From a virus, in the IMG/VR virus record IMGVR_UViG_3300028388_002946, positions 1-33,620 of that record: a stretch of 33,620 nucleotides of DNA; one strand, 5' to 3'. Below the pieces are notes generated by a model. That model was not told the DNA's origin. It made no database searches and worked only from the letters and a program-made list of their open reading frames with translations. Below are positions 9,655 to 28,075 of this stretch, in pieces. Each line of letters opens with the position of its first letter. Within the stretch, counting starts at the first letter, position 1. A program made the translations under genes and the position numbers.

Positions 9655-9969
9655 TTATGTGCCCCCGCCGTCGGTGATGGTCCATGTGTGATCTGAAATA
9701 AGTGCTGCCCTTGCTGTGTCTGCCGCTGATCCGGTTGTGTAGACTGAGCTACCAAATCCTGCATTTACGTTGTTTTGCACTGCCTGTGCTTCCCAGCTTG
9801 TGAGAATCTGATCATAATTAGATGTTTGCAACGTGACCCCGGTGAACATGTCTACGGCACTTGTCAAGCTTGTTACATCCCAGGATGTTACCCCTAAAGA
9901 ATCCAGCTCAAAACAATCTCTAAACGCTTTATTCATTGTTGTAACAGAAGAAACATCCCAGCTATTCAA
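9655..9969 (-). pseudogene. C-terminal piece of the BspA-repeat protein (frame restored)
   Basis: This segment continues the BspA-type repeats (NSWDVSSVTTMNKAFRDC, VTSWDVTSLTSAVDMF) and ends in DHTWTITDGGGT, a typical C-terminus of such proteins. It is in the same frame as the N-terminal piece but in a different frame from the middle piece. The only possible initiator is a TTG, and the repeat begins within its first residues. I read it as the natural C-terminus of one gene spanning 9655-11817 rather than as a separate gene. Confidence 0.6.
9934..9962 (+). repeat. 29-bp direct repeat, copy 1
   Basis: Identical to 10379-10407, 445 bp away. On the minus strand it encodes the WDVSSVTTM core of a BspA unit. 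The frameshift before the C-terminal piece lies immediately beside this copy (TTTGAATAGC, then the repeat). Confidence 0.85.
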
Positions 9970-10381
9970 ATAACATTGAATTAAGGCTACCTAATGTCCA
10001 ATTTTCTATTCCTGGAATACTTTCTAACAAAAAGCAATTTCTAAACATTTCAACGCCGCCTCCCATTTGGCCAGGGTTCGATGTACCAGAAAAATCAATA
10101 AGCTTTACCTGATAGCAATTGTAAAATGATTGATACTGGTCAACAAGTGCGGACAAATCCCATCCAGATAAGTTAATTGTGTCTATTGACGAACATGCGT
10201 AAAACATTCTTTGCATATCCGTTACCCCTGAAACGTCCCATCCAGATAAATTAAGTGTTCCGTCCAACGATGAGCAGTTAAAAAAGATGTCAAACATATT
10301 AACTAAACTAGCTGACGTATTCCATGATTCAATTCCCGTTATTTCTGAGATCGCGGAACAATTTGAAAAAGTATTCTGCAT
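9962..10381 (-). pseudogene. Middle piece of the BspA-repeat protein (shifted frame)
   Basis: The frame encodes about five BspA/DUF285-type leucine-rich units of the form MF..CSS...LNLSGWDVSGVTDM. On the minus strand it is in the -1 frame relative to the piece upstream and stops at TAG 9962, just where the next piece begins. The repeat pattern runs continuously through both joints if the frame is changed, so these are frameshifts, not separate genes. No slippery heptamer is visible at either joint. Confidence 0.6.
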
Positions 10382-11817
10382 TGTTGTAACAGAAGAAACA
10401 TCCCAGCATAAACCAATGCGGATGCTCCATCAAAAAATTGCTCCAATGAAGTCACACCGGAAAGGTCCCATCCAGGCATTATCAATGTGTCAATTGATAA
10501 ACATGATGCAAAAGTTTGGTATAGGCTAGTAGTTGAAACTGTTGGTGTGTCTATTGCTGTTATTTTCAATGCCGAGCAGCCATAGAAAGTAGAATTTGTC
10601 TTAAAATCAAAACCACCCCACTGTTGAATCTCTATTATTTTATCATCGTCGCCTGACTGACTGAATCGCCACCATCCAGGGTCACCAAAAATCTGCACAG
10701 TATATATGCCAACTGTATCATAAGTGTGCCTCATGAAAGTTGAATCGAACCCACTGGCGGTCTGTCGCGTTCCATCGCCCCAATCCACTATGAAGTTGTA
10801 AGTTTGTGACGCTGATAGTGGTAGTATGATTTCATTAGTATCTGTAATCCCGGTTAGTTCGGTGTTCCAGACCGTAATGAAGGTATCGGGATTGACCAGG
10901 TCATCAAAACAGTAGTTAGTACCATCGTAATACCCCTCAATGATTGGATCACTCGTGGTATCATATCCGTCCGGAAAATCAAGAGGATACCCAACACGAT
11001 CCAGGAAAGAGCTAGGGAAGTCCACCTTAATTCCACCATTTCTAAGGTGGAACTTGTACTCTCCGTATGTACTAGGGTTGGCCACACCTATACTGGTTCC
11101 TTCATTAGCTCCGGTCAGGTCTATCTGATAGCGCCCCCTTCTATGATTCTCGAAATCAATGTAGAATGAATCCGTACCAATCAAGATTGGAAATATTGTC
11201 CCTGCATCGAGTAGCATGTCTTGCAGGTATTGAGTGCCGCCTTCGTAGACACTTAGAGTGTCGTTGTTGAACGTGATTGAATCAAGTTTGGCGGTTGATA
11301 GATCCACGGTAGCCAGACTATCGCTAATCTGCTGCCGAACCTGGTCAGCATTGAGATATCCGGAGATCAACACCAGGTTAGCAGCAAGCTCCAGCGTATC
11401 CAGATTGGTGATGCGCAGATCGTGCGCGCCGGCGTAGATGGAGACATTACCGGCCGGCAGCGAATCGATCAGGCCATTGCCATCAACTTGCTCGGGAAGG
11501 ACGATGCAATAACCGGAAGCCGTACACAATGTATCCGGCGGGCCAGGCAATATATAAAGCGAATCCTGACCAACAGCATACTGAATGCTATCAGAGAGCT
11601 GCTCCTCCGTCACCTGGCCGCCTGCGATCAGGTGCGTGCGCAGGCCACCGACGGTGATCTTCTTCCACTCGCCCACAATGGTGAACAGGATCGTACTGTC
11701 GCTGATTGATACGCCTGTAATCTCATCTTTCGTTACGACCGTCACGCTGTCCACTTTGGTCTGCGCCGCGGCAAGCAGTGGCAGGAGAGAAAATAATATA
11801 ATTGCAAGACGCTTCAT
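10339..11817 (-). CDS. Secreted PKD/BspA-like adhesin, N-terminal part (frameshifted)
   Basis: Frame of 492 codons. It begins with a Sec signal peptide (MKRLAIILFSLLPLLAAAQ), then Ser/Thr/Asp-rich stretches, a PKD-like motif (YNFIVDWGDGTRQTASGFDS, about 340-375) and the first BspA-type repeats (FYGCSALKITAI, MPGWDLSGVTSLEQFF). True repeat sequence ends at about codon 469, near 10410; the remaining codons (MFLLLQQCRILFQ) are the conserved WDVSSVTTM repeat read out of frame. Such repeats mediate surface adhesion. AT content is higher than in neighbouring virion genes, which suggests separate acquisition. It could serve as a tail fibre or as a lysogen surface protein. Confidence 0.65.
   Translation of the reverse strand: MKRLAIILFSLLPLLAAAQTKVDSVTVVTKDEITGVSISDSTILFTIVGEWKKITVGGLRTHLIAGGQVTEEQLSDSIQYAVGQDSLYILPGPPDTLCTASGYCIVLPEQVDGNGLIDSLPAGNVSIYAGAHDLRITNLDTLELAANLVLISGYLNADQVRQQISDSLATVDLSTAKLDSITFNNDTLSVYEGGTQYLQDMLLDAGTIFPILIGTDSFYIDFENHRRGRYQIDLTGANEGTSIGVANPSTYGEYKFHLRNGGIKVDFPSSFLDRVGYPLDFPDGYDTTSDPIIEGYYDGTNYCFDDLVNPDTFITVWNTELTGITDTNEIILPLSASQTYNFIVDWGDGTRQTASGFDSTFMRHTYDTVGIYTVQIFGDPGWWRFSQSGDDDKIIEIQQWGGFDFKTNSTFYGCSALKITAIDTPTVSTTSLYQTFASCLSIDTLIMPGWDLSGVTSLEQFFDGASALVYAGMFLLLQQCRILFQIVPRSQK
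10379..10407 (+). repeat. 29-bp direct repeat, copy 2
   Basis: Exact copy of 9934-9962. The frameshift between the N-terminal and middle pieces lies at its upstream edge on the minus strand (TTTATGC, then TGGGATGTTTC). The copy-to-copy distance of 445 bp is not a multiple of three. Confidence 0.85.
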
Positions 11818-26330: not shown

Positions 26331-26732
26331 TTATCGTTTTACTTCGTTCTTATACATTGCTTCGACCTGGGTGACGACCGCATTGAGTTCCTGGATATTC
26401 AGGTAATGGAGCGTCTTGCGCTGTGGGTTGCGGCTGCCGATGTTCTGCACGAATTTGTTGATCCGGTTATAGTCCGGCGTGGCATCTTCGCGGACGTAGC
26501 CCATGAGGCAGAGCAAGTGTATAATCTTGCCGATCTGCTTACTGGTGCGCTCTTTTTTCTGTGCGCGCAGAATCCGGATCAGGTAGTCGGCCTCGGCCCA
26601 GGTCATGTCTTTACTGCTGCGGGTGCGGCCCTTGCTGGCCTGATCGACCAGGTCGGCCTTCTGATCCATGAGGCCCAGTTGGTGGAGCAGGGCGTGGAGG
26701 GCTCGGTTTTGTTCTCCCAGTATCTTTCTCAT
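26331..26732 (-). CDS. GemA-like (Mu gp16-like) regulatory protein
   Basis: Protein of 133 aa with the layout of the GemA family: an N-terminal helix HALLHQLGLMDQKADLVDQA, then RTRSSKDMTWAEADYLIRIL (family pattern s.kdLt.ae...ll..L), a central KIIHLLCLMGYV (family: kiwaLW...g..), IGSRNPQRKTLHYLNIQELN (family: ...d.lr.Lt..e...vI..Lk). Mu GemA modulates host gene expression and supercoiling in the semi-essential early region. The assignment is by pattern in an appropriate position. Confidence 0.6.
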   Translation of the reverse strand: MRKILGEQNRALHALLHQLGLMDQKADLVDQASKGRTRSSKDMTWAEADYLIRILRAQKKERTSKQIGKIIHLLCLMGYVREDATPDYNRINKFVQNIGSRNPQRKTLHYLNIQELNAVVTQVEAMYKNEVKR

Positions 26733-27058
26733 ATTGTCTGTACGTGTTTGAATTTGTTGGCAATGATGACAACCGCCTGGAACTCTTCCAGTGTAAGGCC
26801 AATGGCTTCCAGGAAATCATCTTTGTTCATGAGTTCCATCCGATGGCCCCAGAGCTGCCGGTTGTGATCAACGATCATCTTATTCCCTTCTCGGATAGAG
26901 ATATTCTTATGGCTGTGAGATCCCCAGTAGCGAATGGCGAAGGTGATCACCTTGGTTTCACTGATTCTGAATTCATACATCATGCCTTCCATCCCCCTCA
27001 GAGAGTAGTAGCAAGGATATCCGGGAAGCTGGTTAAACAGCGTTTGATCTGCCATCAA
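26729..27058 (-). CDS. Unknown early/middle protein (109 aa)
   Basis: Protein of 109 aa, beginning MMADQTLFNQLPGYPCYYSL. The middle is beta-rich (MMYEFRISETKVITFAIRYW, ISIREGNKMIVDHN) and the C-terminus helical. It is the first gene after the structured RNA cluster and the 27073 hairpin, so its expression may depend on read-through or on a local promoter (TACTATTTG at 27104-27112 is a near -7 box). Family not recognised. Confidence 0.5.
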   Translation of the reverse strand: MMADQTLFNQLPGYPCYYSLRGMEGMMYEFRISETKVITFAIRYWGSHSHKNISIREGNKMIVDHNRQLWGHRMELMNKDDFLEAIGLTLEEFQAVVIIANKFKHVQTI

Positions 27059-27072
27059 TCAAGGTTTAAAAG

Positions 27073-27094
27073 GCGGCCCCGCGGACGGGGCCGC
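27073..27094 (-). terminator. GC-rich hairpin followed by CTTTT
   Basis: On the minus strand GCGGCCCCG-TCCG-CGGGGCCGC (9 bp) is followed by CTTTT. It lies between the RNA cluster and the gene at 27058. It would end, wholly or partly, transcription coming from gam and the RNA cluster. Confidence 0.6.
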
Positions 27095-27135
27095 TTCATC
27101 ACTCTAAACAAATAGTACTCATGAAAAAAACTTCG

Positions 27136-27211
27136 CTGCATAAATCAGAATCGAACTGATACCTGGCTTACTATTAAGGCGCCACCCGTGCTACCGCTAC
27201 ACCATTATGCA
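27136..27211 (-). tRNA. tRNA-like gene, anticodon not assignable
   Basis: Minus strand. Perfect 7-bp acceptor stem TGCATAA/TTATGCA, then TG, a 4-bp D stem (GTGT/GCAC) with an AGCGGTA loop containing GG, and a perfect 5-bp T arm ATCAG-TTCGATT-CTGAT. Between D arm and T arm lie 27 nt instead of about 23. The best central stem is TGGC/GCCA around a 13-nt loop, so no normal 5-bp stem with 7-nt loop can be drawn. CCA is not encoded. Seven T follow shortly after. It is either a degenerate tRNA or a tRNA mimic. Confidence 0.6.
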
Positions 27212-27222
27212 GACCAGACTTT

Positions 27223-27295
27223 CAAAGGCTCCAGGATCGTCAATCCTGGCCACTTTAACCTAGGTTCGCTCCATCGCGTTCTAGTTGCCCCTTTG
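27223..27295 (-). ncRNA. Structured RNA segment of tRNA length between the two tRNA-like genes
   Basis: The ends CAAAGG (27295-27290) and CCTTTG (27228-27223) pair over 6 bp, 73 nt apart. Inside are AACTAG/CTAGGTT with one bulge closed by CGC/GCG, and a perfect 7-bp hairpin CCAGGAT/ATCCTGG (27231-27249). There is no canonical T loop, so I do not call a tRNA. Its 5' strand is also the 3' acceptor strand of the larger RNA to its right, so the two folds exclude each other. Confidence 0.35.
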
Positions 27296-27427
27296 CCCGG
27301 ATTTGAACCGGGAAGGAACTATCTTCGTGGCCATAGTTCCTATTGACCCCTAAAGTGTGATAGTTATCAGCCAAGCCAAAACCGAGTAGTAACACCTTTA
27401 GGTGCGGCAACCAACGCCGCCAAAGGG
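27289..27427 (-). ncRNA. 139-nt tRNA-like RNA with enlarged central arm
   Basis: Minus strand. The acceptor is CCCTTTG (27427-27421) paired perfectly with CAAAGGG (27295-27289). Next come a 5-bp D-arm-like hairpin GCGGC-GTTGGTT-GCCGC directly abutting it, a long arm CCTAAAG/CTTTAGG (27402-27396 with 27355-27349) extended by GTGTTA/TATCAC, an 8-bp hairpin GGAACTAT/ATAGTTCC (27340-27315) in the variable-arm position, and a perfect T arm CCCGG-TTCAAAT-CCGGG (27312-27296) directly against the acceptor. This is a cloverleaf with almost no unpaired joints but about 65 nt too long. It is not tmRNA-sized. Function unknown. Confidence 0.5.
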
Positions 27428-27433
27428 ATGAAG

Positions 27434-27451
27434 GCCGGGCCGAAGCCCGGC
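27434..27451 (-). terminator. TTCG-capped hairpin between gam and the RNA cluster
   Basis: On the minus strand GCCGGGC-TTCG-GCCCGGC is followed by CTTCATCC and ends 7 nt before the acceptor strand of the 139-nt RNA. It may terminate part of the gam transcript or mark the processed 5' side of the RNA. It shares its core with 23450-23467. Confidence 0.5.
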
Positions 27452-27493: not shown

Positions 27494-28075
27494 TTACAAC
27501 TTGATGTAAACCTGTTCTTCCTGCACAATCTGCAGGCCGCTTTCTTCGAGTAGCTGCAGCTCCCCTTCGGTGGCATCCTTGAAGACCTTTACGATCATGG
27601 TTTTATCGAGGTCTTCGCGCTGGCGCACATAGGCGGGGTTGCGTTTCTTCCAGTACTTCAGGGCGTCTTCCCAGTCGTGGCCGTCTACCAGCTCCAGCTT
27701 GGCGCGGTTGAGCTTGACGCCGACCTTCCCAGGGCCGAAAGCGATACTCTTCTTCTTGCCGTCGAAAAGCTTTTCGCGATTCTGCTCCGTGAAGGTCATC
27801 ACGATCTGGGCGTAGTCTTCGCTCTGGGTGGCGAGTTCCTCCAGCTTGCCGCTGTACTTCTTCTCCACTTTGAGCATGTCGAGTTTCTTCTGGCTTTCCA
27901 CCTTGTCGATCTGGGCCTGCAGCTCGGCGTATTTGTCCATGGCCGCCAGGGCTTCGTCGTAGGTGGGTTCTGTAATCACTTCGCTCATTCTTGGTTCGTT
28001 TTTATATGGATCAATGAAAAAATCTTTCCAGTGTAGTAGCAAGACCAGGGCGAGAATGCCGAGGATGATCATCAT
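27494..28075 (-). CDS. gam: Gam-like host-nuclease inhibitor with optional membrane anchor
   Basis: The Gam domain spans residues 40-193: a long coiled-coil (AAMDKYAELQAQIDKVESQK, KVEKKYSGKLEELATQ), then NREKLFDGKKKSIAFGPGKV and HDWEDALKYWKKRNPAYVRQ, the Mu Gam/Ku-like pattern that caps DNA ends. A start at 27988 (MSEVITEPTYDEALA) gives the usual 164 aa. An upstream in-frame ATG at 28075 overlaps the previous stop as ATGA and adds 29 residues with a transmembrane helix (MMIILGILALVLLLHWKDFF). Both starts are plausible and two forms may exist. Confidence 0.82.
   Translation of the reverse strand: MMIILGILALVLLLHWKDFFIDPYKNEPRMSEVITEPTYDEALAAMDKYAELQAQIDKVESQKKLDMLKVEKKYSGKLEELATQSEDYAQIVMTFTEQNREKLFDGKKKSIAFGPGKVGVKLNRAKLELVDGHDWEDALKYWKKRNPAYVRQREDLDKTMIVKVFKDATEGELQLLEESGLQIVQEEQVYIKL

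Follow-up and report, generated by a model that had tools for sequence, protein, structure and literature searches.

tRNA-like elements without a standard anticodon arm between phage genes, and their possible role in operon processing

Why would a phage keep two tRNA-shaped RNAs that have no normal anticodon arm between the genes of its early operon? The question is raised by the window analyzed here, i.e., the whole 33.6-kb stretch of record IMGVR_UViG_3300028388_002946 (IMG/VR), which is a Mu-like phage: its minus-strand genes include, by Pfam domain, a transposase (PF00665/PF09299), MuB (PF09077), Gam (PF07352), and a GemA-like gene. Both RNAs, referred to as RNA2 and RNA1, are encoded on the minus strand within the intergenic gap of the early operon that separates Gam from the gene before GemA. 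An earlier note on this locus had suggested that they could be tRNA mimics and had offered three functions: decoys for host nucleases, processing signals for the operon, or regulators that bind tRNA enzymes.

Two tRNA-like RNAs in the gam-gemA interval

The features of the locus are the following:

27494..27985, minus strand: gene for a Mu Gam-like protein, upstream neighbor of RNA2 (PF07352, E = 8.8e-21)
27434..27451, minus strand: strong hairpin GCCGGGCUUCGGCCCGGC in the interval from the gam stop to RNA2 (sequence and fold)
27288..27427, minus strand: RNA2, a 140-nt tRNA-like RNA without a normal anticodon arm, discriminator G (coordinates and minimum free energy, MFE)
27421..27427, minus strand: RNA2 acceptor 5' strand CCCUUUG, pairs with CAAAGGG at 27289-27295
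27404..27420, minus strand: RNA2 D arm GCGGC-GUUGGUU-GCCGC, with GG in the loop (fold)
27349..27402, minus strand: RNA2 long arm CCUAAAGGUG ... CACACUUUAGG at the place of the anticodon arm (fold)
27314..27341, minus strand: RNA2 long variable-type arm of 9 bp, AGGAACUAU/AUAGUUCCU (fold)
27296..27312, minus strand: RNA2 T arm CCCGG-UUCAAAU-CCGGG, perfect, loop TTCAAAT (scan)
27289..27295, minus strand: RNA2 acceptor 3' strand, followed by discriminator and flank G-C-A-A at 27288-27285
27222..27258, minus strand: long hairpin between RNA2 and RNA1 with a 5-bp/7-nt anticodon-like cap (fold, z -2.2)
27136..27211, minus strand: RNA1, a 76-nt tRNA-like RNA, flank G-C-G-A (RF00005 at 41.1 bits, and scan)
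27165..27186, minus strand: replacement of the RNA1 anticodon region, GGUGGCGCCUUAAUAGUAAGCC (comparison with L114)
27068..27096, minus strand: terminator-like hairpin followed by UUUU, in the interval from RNA1 to the next gene
26729..27055, minus strand: next gene downstream of RNA1
26331..26732, minus strand: GemA-like gene, after the gene at 26729-27055

The sequence confirms that, as had been claimed, the 7-bp acceptor stem and the T arm are perfect in both RNAs. In RNA1, all seven acceptor pairs are formed (UGCAUAA/UUAUGCA), the D arm reads GUGU-AGCGGUA-GCAC, and the T arm reads AUCAG-UUCGAUU-CUGAU (loop TTCGATT). The operon strand thus holds, in RNA1 as in RNA2, a 7-bp acceptor with a T arm of the loop type TTCRANY, and the two helices add up to a 12-bp stack of the RNase P type (7+5 bp) with an elbow loop. 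Neither RNA has the standard 5-bp/7-nt anticodon arm, by sequence or by fold; in RNA1, the anticodon region that lacks it is 22 nt long. The statement that such an arm is absent throughout was, however, not fully correct: the third structured segment, which contains neither a T arm nor an acceptor, is capped at 27232-27248 by CAGGA-UUGACGA-UCCUG, i.e., by a 5-bp stem and a 7-nt loop with GAC at the anticodon place. Likewise, newly paired arms in the anticodon region are found in RNA2, while RNA1 has a short replacement only. The anticodon region of RNA1 and its flanks are identical at 21 of 27 positions to those of an element in another locus, L114, a level that none of 20,000 shuffles reached; the two elements nevertheless have wholly different acceptors and T stems. 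L114 was the sole match in a pattern search with the RNA1 interior.

The two RNAs also differ in how they score. The tRNA model of Rfam (RF00005) accepts RNA1 with 41.1 bits, above its gathering score of 29, whereas RNA2 gave no match in the Rfam search; ARAGORN called no tRNA among the RNAs of the window. Conversely, folding better than shuffled sequence was confirmed for RNA2 but not for RNA1. The unconstrained MFE structure of the entire RNA2 is the tRNA-like cloverleaf (-56.7 kcal/mol), and a 139-nt version that is two acceptor bases short is better folded than its shuffles (z -3.5). RNA1 is no more stable than its shuffles (z +0.2), so fold stability on its own is insufficient support and was rejected as the only evidence for this RNA. 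A DNA similarity search of the RNA region against phage records gave no match.

Related elements in Mu-like phages

Single-protein searches for close relatives of the phage returned almost nothing, whereas profile queries built from small alignments were productive. The sample comprised 110 non-redundant Mu-like loci (1.27 Mb). The closest relatives found carry a tRNA or tRNA-like element at the position between Gam and GemA: L004, whose MuB is 58% identical, has a canonical tRNA-Met, L005 a minihelix, and L080 a 142-nt element. L004 (RFIO01000204.1) is filed as a Deltaproteobacteria MAG, while its Mu-like genes are closest to the Bacteroidota-type phage of the window; the contig is probably mis-binned.

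A strict scan for a perfect T arm with a 7-bp acceptor, applied to 36 loci (450 kb), detected 10 elements, compared to a mean of 0.2 in dinucleotide shuffles. Across all 110 loci, T arms with a G53-C61 pair lie almost exclusively on the operon strand (56, versus 3 on the other strand, one of them in an unoriented locus). A complete upstream acceptor partner accompanies 26 of 57 Mu-like T arms, as opposed to 2.2 when the 3' strands are swapped (maximum 7 in 500 trials). In crAss001, which served as a positive control, matches were confined to the annotated tRNA cluster, and a scan of phage Mu itself found no element. Elements are missing by the criteria used in 62 of the 110 loci, some of which are on cut contigs; they are hence not essential to the Mu-like life style. 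Where present, they are placed ahead of the transposase gene or in the interval from MuB to the GemA side, and an ORF starts 8-30 nt after the element end in 30 of 55 cases (5.3% of random positions); in a Porphyromonas phage (L009), the transposase start follows after 14 nt.

The anatomy of the class was compared in 39 Mu-like elements with at least 6 acceptor pairs. They have 10-150 nt of interior sequence separating the acceptor from the T arm, with uncertain 5' partners in some of the longest, and most members have no anticodon. The interior is reduced to 12-15 nt in L044, L118, and L097; in L083 and L151, the D arm is kept and the anticodon arm is absent; cloverleaves with an abnormal anticodon region are found in RNA1, hankyphage p00 (L008), the Porphyromonas phage, and L114; and large inserts characterize RNA2, L054, L080, L110, and L129. 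RF00005 accepts four relatives in addition to RNA1, and ARAGORN labels several relatives “tRNA-???” with anticodons of 2 or 4 nt. Beyond the stems, the T loop is constant, the discriminator is mostly a purine, C74 is present in 37 of 39, and positions 75-76 are A-rich; the 3' flank is thus R-C-N-A, rarely with an encoded CCA, and reads GCGA in RNA1 and GCAA in RNA2.

Compensatory changes, for which the earlier note had proposed to look in Mu-like relatives, are present in the stems: 140 cells are double-changed, with a covariation score of 1.01 versus 0.20 in shuffled and 0.17-0.25 in slid partners. The elements in this alignment, and in the one of compact forms described below, were picked by pairing, so the percentage of paired positions is inflated; the swap tests are free of this bias. 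Taken together, scan, swap tests, and covariation indicate that acceptor and T arm are under selection, which bears out the view of these RNAs as tRNA mimics, not decaying tRNAs.

Several further observations were made in this set. The annotated tRNA-Arg of hankyphage p00 (L008 1767-1850, OY725592.1) has an extended anticodon arm, in which a longer stem encloses CUCC-UAUAAU-GGAG; it probably belongs to the class and is not a decoding tRNA. The first acceptor pair is most commonly U1-A72 (U1 in 16 of 27 full-acceptor elements), which is unusual among bacterial tRNAs. Directly 5' of the acceptor 5' strand, a leader like GTTAATTCGGTT is conserved in L110, L118, L129, L139, L149, and L049; such a leader might contact RNase P or engage in further pairing.

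Compact forms within and outside Mu-like phages

A compact version of the element consists of the acceptor, a D-loop-like AACGGTT, and the T arm only, and was found in L084, L085 (twice), L088, L090, L091, and L151. A pattern of TGAACGGTT plus T loop, which demands pairing neither in the acceptor nor in the outer T stem, matched 29 contigs in IMG/VR. The three outer T-stem pairs are formed in all 29 distinct compact matches, where swapping predicts 4.6, and at least 5 acceptor pairs are formed in 25, where swapping predicts 4.3. Among the matches are the mycobacteriophages Predator, Cuke, and Fowlmouth. Six mycobacteriophages together have 31 intergenic gaps of 60-300 nt, of which at least 23 contain the element, with no compact element on the opposite strand; its 3' end precedes the next CDS by 27-51 nt, nearly always by 42-51 nt, and several other gaps of this size contain visibly degenerate versions. 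Similar elements occur in Javan271 and Javan393, two Streptococcus phages.

Compact acceptors differ from element to element. The stems of the compact form covary: double changes affect 10 of 11 pairs (124 cells), and the score is 1.04 versus 0.21 in shuffled alignments. In 83 compact-type elements, acceptor and T helix total 11, 12, or 13 bp, irrespective of a split into 5+6, 6+6, 6+5, or 5+7. The 3' flank is A-C-N-A, with C74 in 72 of 83; only 2 have C as the third base. This is the flank of host tRNA genes as well (C74 in 14 of 14 sampled genes, C75 in none). What links cloverleaf forms like those of the window to compact forms is a set of common features rather than homologous sequence. 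The compact form is not covered by any family of Rfam 15, in which mascRNA and tmRNA come nearest but score far below their thresholds. The pattern has 0 matches in 396 Bacteroidota genomes, where only about one would be expected at IMG/VR density, so this count is uninformative as to confinement to phages.

On the contigs L183 (IMGVR_UViG_3300020411_001873) and L171, there are nine (in 10.7 kb) and five (in 7.9 kb) compact elements, respectively, all on one strand and with Shine-Dalgarno-like GGAGG ahead of the starts; punctuation seems densest in these two. In the mycobacteriophages L190-L195, each compact element is followed by a second small hairpin ahead of the ribosome-binding region, which, after cleavage, might cap the new 5' end of the mRNA.

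Operon punctuation and its alternatives

RNase P measures a 12-bp helix and forms pairs with RCC (PMC10731613). RNase Z grips the elbow like a clamp, and CCA blocks it (PMC4919913). RNase P substrates include the M3 RNA of phage phi80, phage C4 RNA, and polycistronic mRNA (PMC11143913). A constant distance from elbow to end, the elbow itself, and R73-C74 without CCA are therefore cues for these two enzymes, and operon punctuation is the simplest reading of the class: RNA1 and RNA2 are of the cloverleaf type and belong to a recurrent class of tRNA-like elements with a defective anticodon region, which are probably processed by RNase P and RNase Z of the host. The element would have kept what pre-tRNA processing demands, i.e., an acceptor and T-arm stack of about 12 bp, the elbow of D loop and T loop, and a purine discriminator plus C with no encoded CCA, and would have dropped or replaced the parts needed for translation only. 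Upon transcription of the early operon, the element would fold, RNase P would generate its 5' end, RNase Z would cleave immediately past the discriminator, and the polycistronic message would be converted into gene-sized mRNAs with defined ends, the next gene gaining a short and clean leader. In the window, the transposase-MuB-Gam message would be parted from the genes on the GemA side, with release of a 76-nt and a 140-nt RNA. From the observed structure, covariation, strand, position, and flank we infer cleavage, the enzymes involved, and an effect on expression. The true tRNA-Met that occupies the same position in L004 also counts in favor of punctuation. Among the functions offered initially, the processing signal fits the wider data best, as it accounts for the strand, the location in gaps, the uniform spacing to the next start, and the repetition along operons, while the decoy and regulator options explain none of these regularities. 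There is an even chance that an elbow plus acceptor without anticodon is a general punctuation device, evolved independently or exchanged, in Bacteroidota Mu-like phages, mycobacteriophages, and apparently streptococcal phages, with RNA1 and RNA2 as elaborated members.

Some observations do not fit a bare processing site. A start codon within about 50 nt downstream is a typical, though not universal, feature of the class, but the next ORF starts 80 nt past RNA1 and 232 nt past RNA2 instead of the usual ~20 nt, and the terminator-like hairpin intervenes after RNA1. RNA2, L054, and L110/L129 have long interiors of a complexity that a bare cut site does not need, and the U1-A72 pair common in the Mu-like set is not the usual RNase P optimum. 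In view of spacing and hairpin, the window pair might also release stable RNAs, which keeps alive the alternative that the elements are released as stable small RNAs acting in trans, as nuclease decoys or ligands of tRNA enzymes. The preserved tRNA-like three-dimensional features, the long structured interiors, and the nonstandard anticodon region conserved between RNA1 and L114, which would be superfluous in a pure cut site, are in line with such a role. It is nonetheless unlikely, since it predicts neither insertion into nearly every gap with a fixed spacing to the following gene nor a reduction to the elbow alone; it would make many members redundant, and anticodon nucleases, the best known tRNA-attacking defense, could not be baited by RNAs that lack an anticodon. 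A similarly low probability is assigned to a cis-acting translation or attenuation element, in which a host factor or the ribosome binds the folded leader and tunes the gene 15-50 nt downstream without cleavage. The constant spacing to the next start codon and the second hairpin of the mycobacteriophages would suit this mechanism, but the downstream genes vary (transposase, GemA-like, and others) and hence form no shared regulon, and the rule of total helix length together with the R-C-not-C flank is unexplained unless a ruler-type tRNA enzyme is involved.

Readings in which the elements are, or were, ordinary tRNAs fare considerably worse. The early regions of L004 and L071 contain apparently intact tRNA-Met genes, so some members may have begun as captured tRNAs; that the class consists of captured genes in neutral decay, with acceptor and T arm kept by chance, is very improbable, however, and was rejected on account of the compensatory changes throughout both stems, to which the many members without any anticodon, the exact placement in gaps, and the recurrence in unrelated phages add. 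Still less credible are functional tRNAs with unusual or intron-bearing anticodon arms: despite the RF00005 scores and the few ARAGORN calls, RNA1 and RNA2 have no 7-nt anticodon loop, and in compact members and L044/L118 a mere 9-14 nt replace the whole D-anticodon-variable region. This reading was rejected for the class, even though the tRNA-Met genes of L004 and L071 are apparently real. An attP-type tRNA fragment, i.e., a single copy of a host tRNA 3' end beside an integrase, was rejected as well: the phage has Mu-type transposition, and the full acceptor including its 5' strand is present, in two copies.

The concept of punctuation by tRNAs is established: in mitochondrial genomes, tRNAs are interspersed with the protein genes on the coding strand, and their excision by RNase P and RNase Z frees the mRNAs. 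The phage elements resemble this arrangement in being tRNA structures between genes on the coding strand, but mitochondrial punctuation tRNAs are real, decoding tRNAs, whereas most phage elements have no usable anticodon and some retain elbow and acceptor only. From a long transcript, RNase P and RNase Z also release mascRNA/menRNA (RF01684), a small tRNA-like RNA with a reduced anticodon region as in the phage elements; it derives, however, from the 3' ends of animal nuclear lncRNAs, is not intercistronic, and has no phage members. Its model did not match the window, and the best compact element reached 22.8 bits, below the cut-off of 42.5. Similar to compact elements, the tRNA-like domain of tmRNA (RF00023) combines acceptor, D loop, and T arm without an anticodon arm, but the phage elements have neither a tag reading frame nor a single conserved acceptor sequence; this model did not match the window either and gave related elements at most 21 bits (cut-off 47). 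With tRNAs proper (RF00005), the elements share acceptor, D, and T arms, yet they differ in the missing anticodon arm, and RNA2 and the compact forms, unlike RNA1, stay below the threshold. Plant-virus tRNA-like structures are virus-encoded tRNA mimics, too, but are 3'-terminal and aminoacylated and belong to RNA genomes, in contrast to intercistronic elements of DNA phages. Bacterial RNase P also cuts, via a tRNA-like helix, the phi80 M3 RNA, the antisense RNA C4 of P1/P7, and the his mRNA of E. coli (PMC11143913, PMC10731613); these are single cases, as opposed to a repeated, covarying class with a tRNA T loop and RCNA flank. As a concept, the elements would be a variant of tRNA punctuation, and the RNA class appears to be undescribed in phages, a provisional statement that rests on the full text of 5.39 million open-access papers, in which no description of it was found.

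If the punctuation model is correct, phages have re-created the punctuation of mitochondria by means of stripped-down tRNA mimics; in bacterial viruses, operon processing of this kind is so far not known to be systematic. The model would account for those “tRNA” calls in Mu-like phages, the hankyphage among them, whose anticodons are impossible, and would imply that phage tRNA gene counts include RNAs unable to decode. Moreover, the elements would provide dozens of natural minimal substrates of RNase P and RNase Z.

Elsewhere in the window, three overlapping minus-strand ORFs at 9655-11817 (10339-11817, 9962-10381, and 9655-9969) are in different frames and encode the same type of repeat, LSGWDVSGVTDM, as if one repeat-rich protein had been split by frameshifts, be they natural, due to phase variation, or an assembly error.
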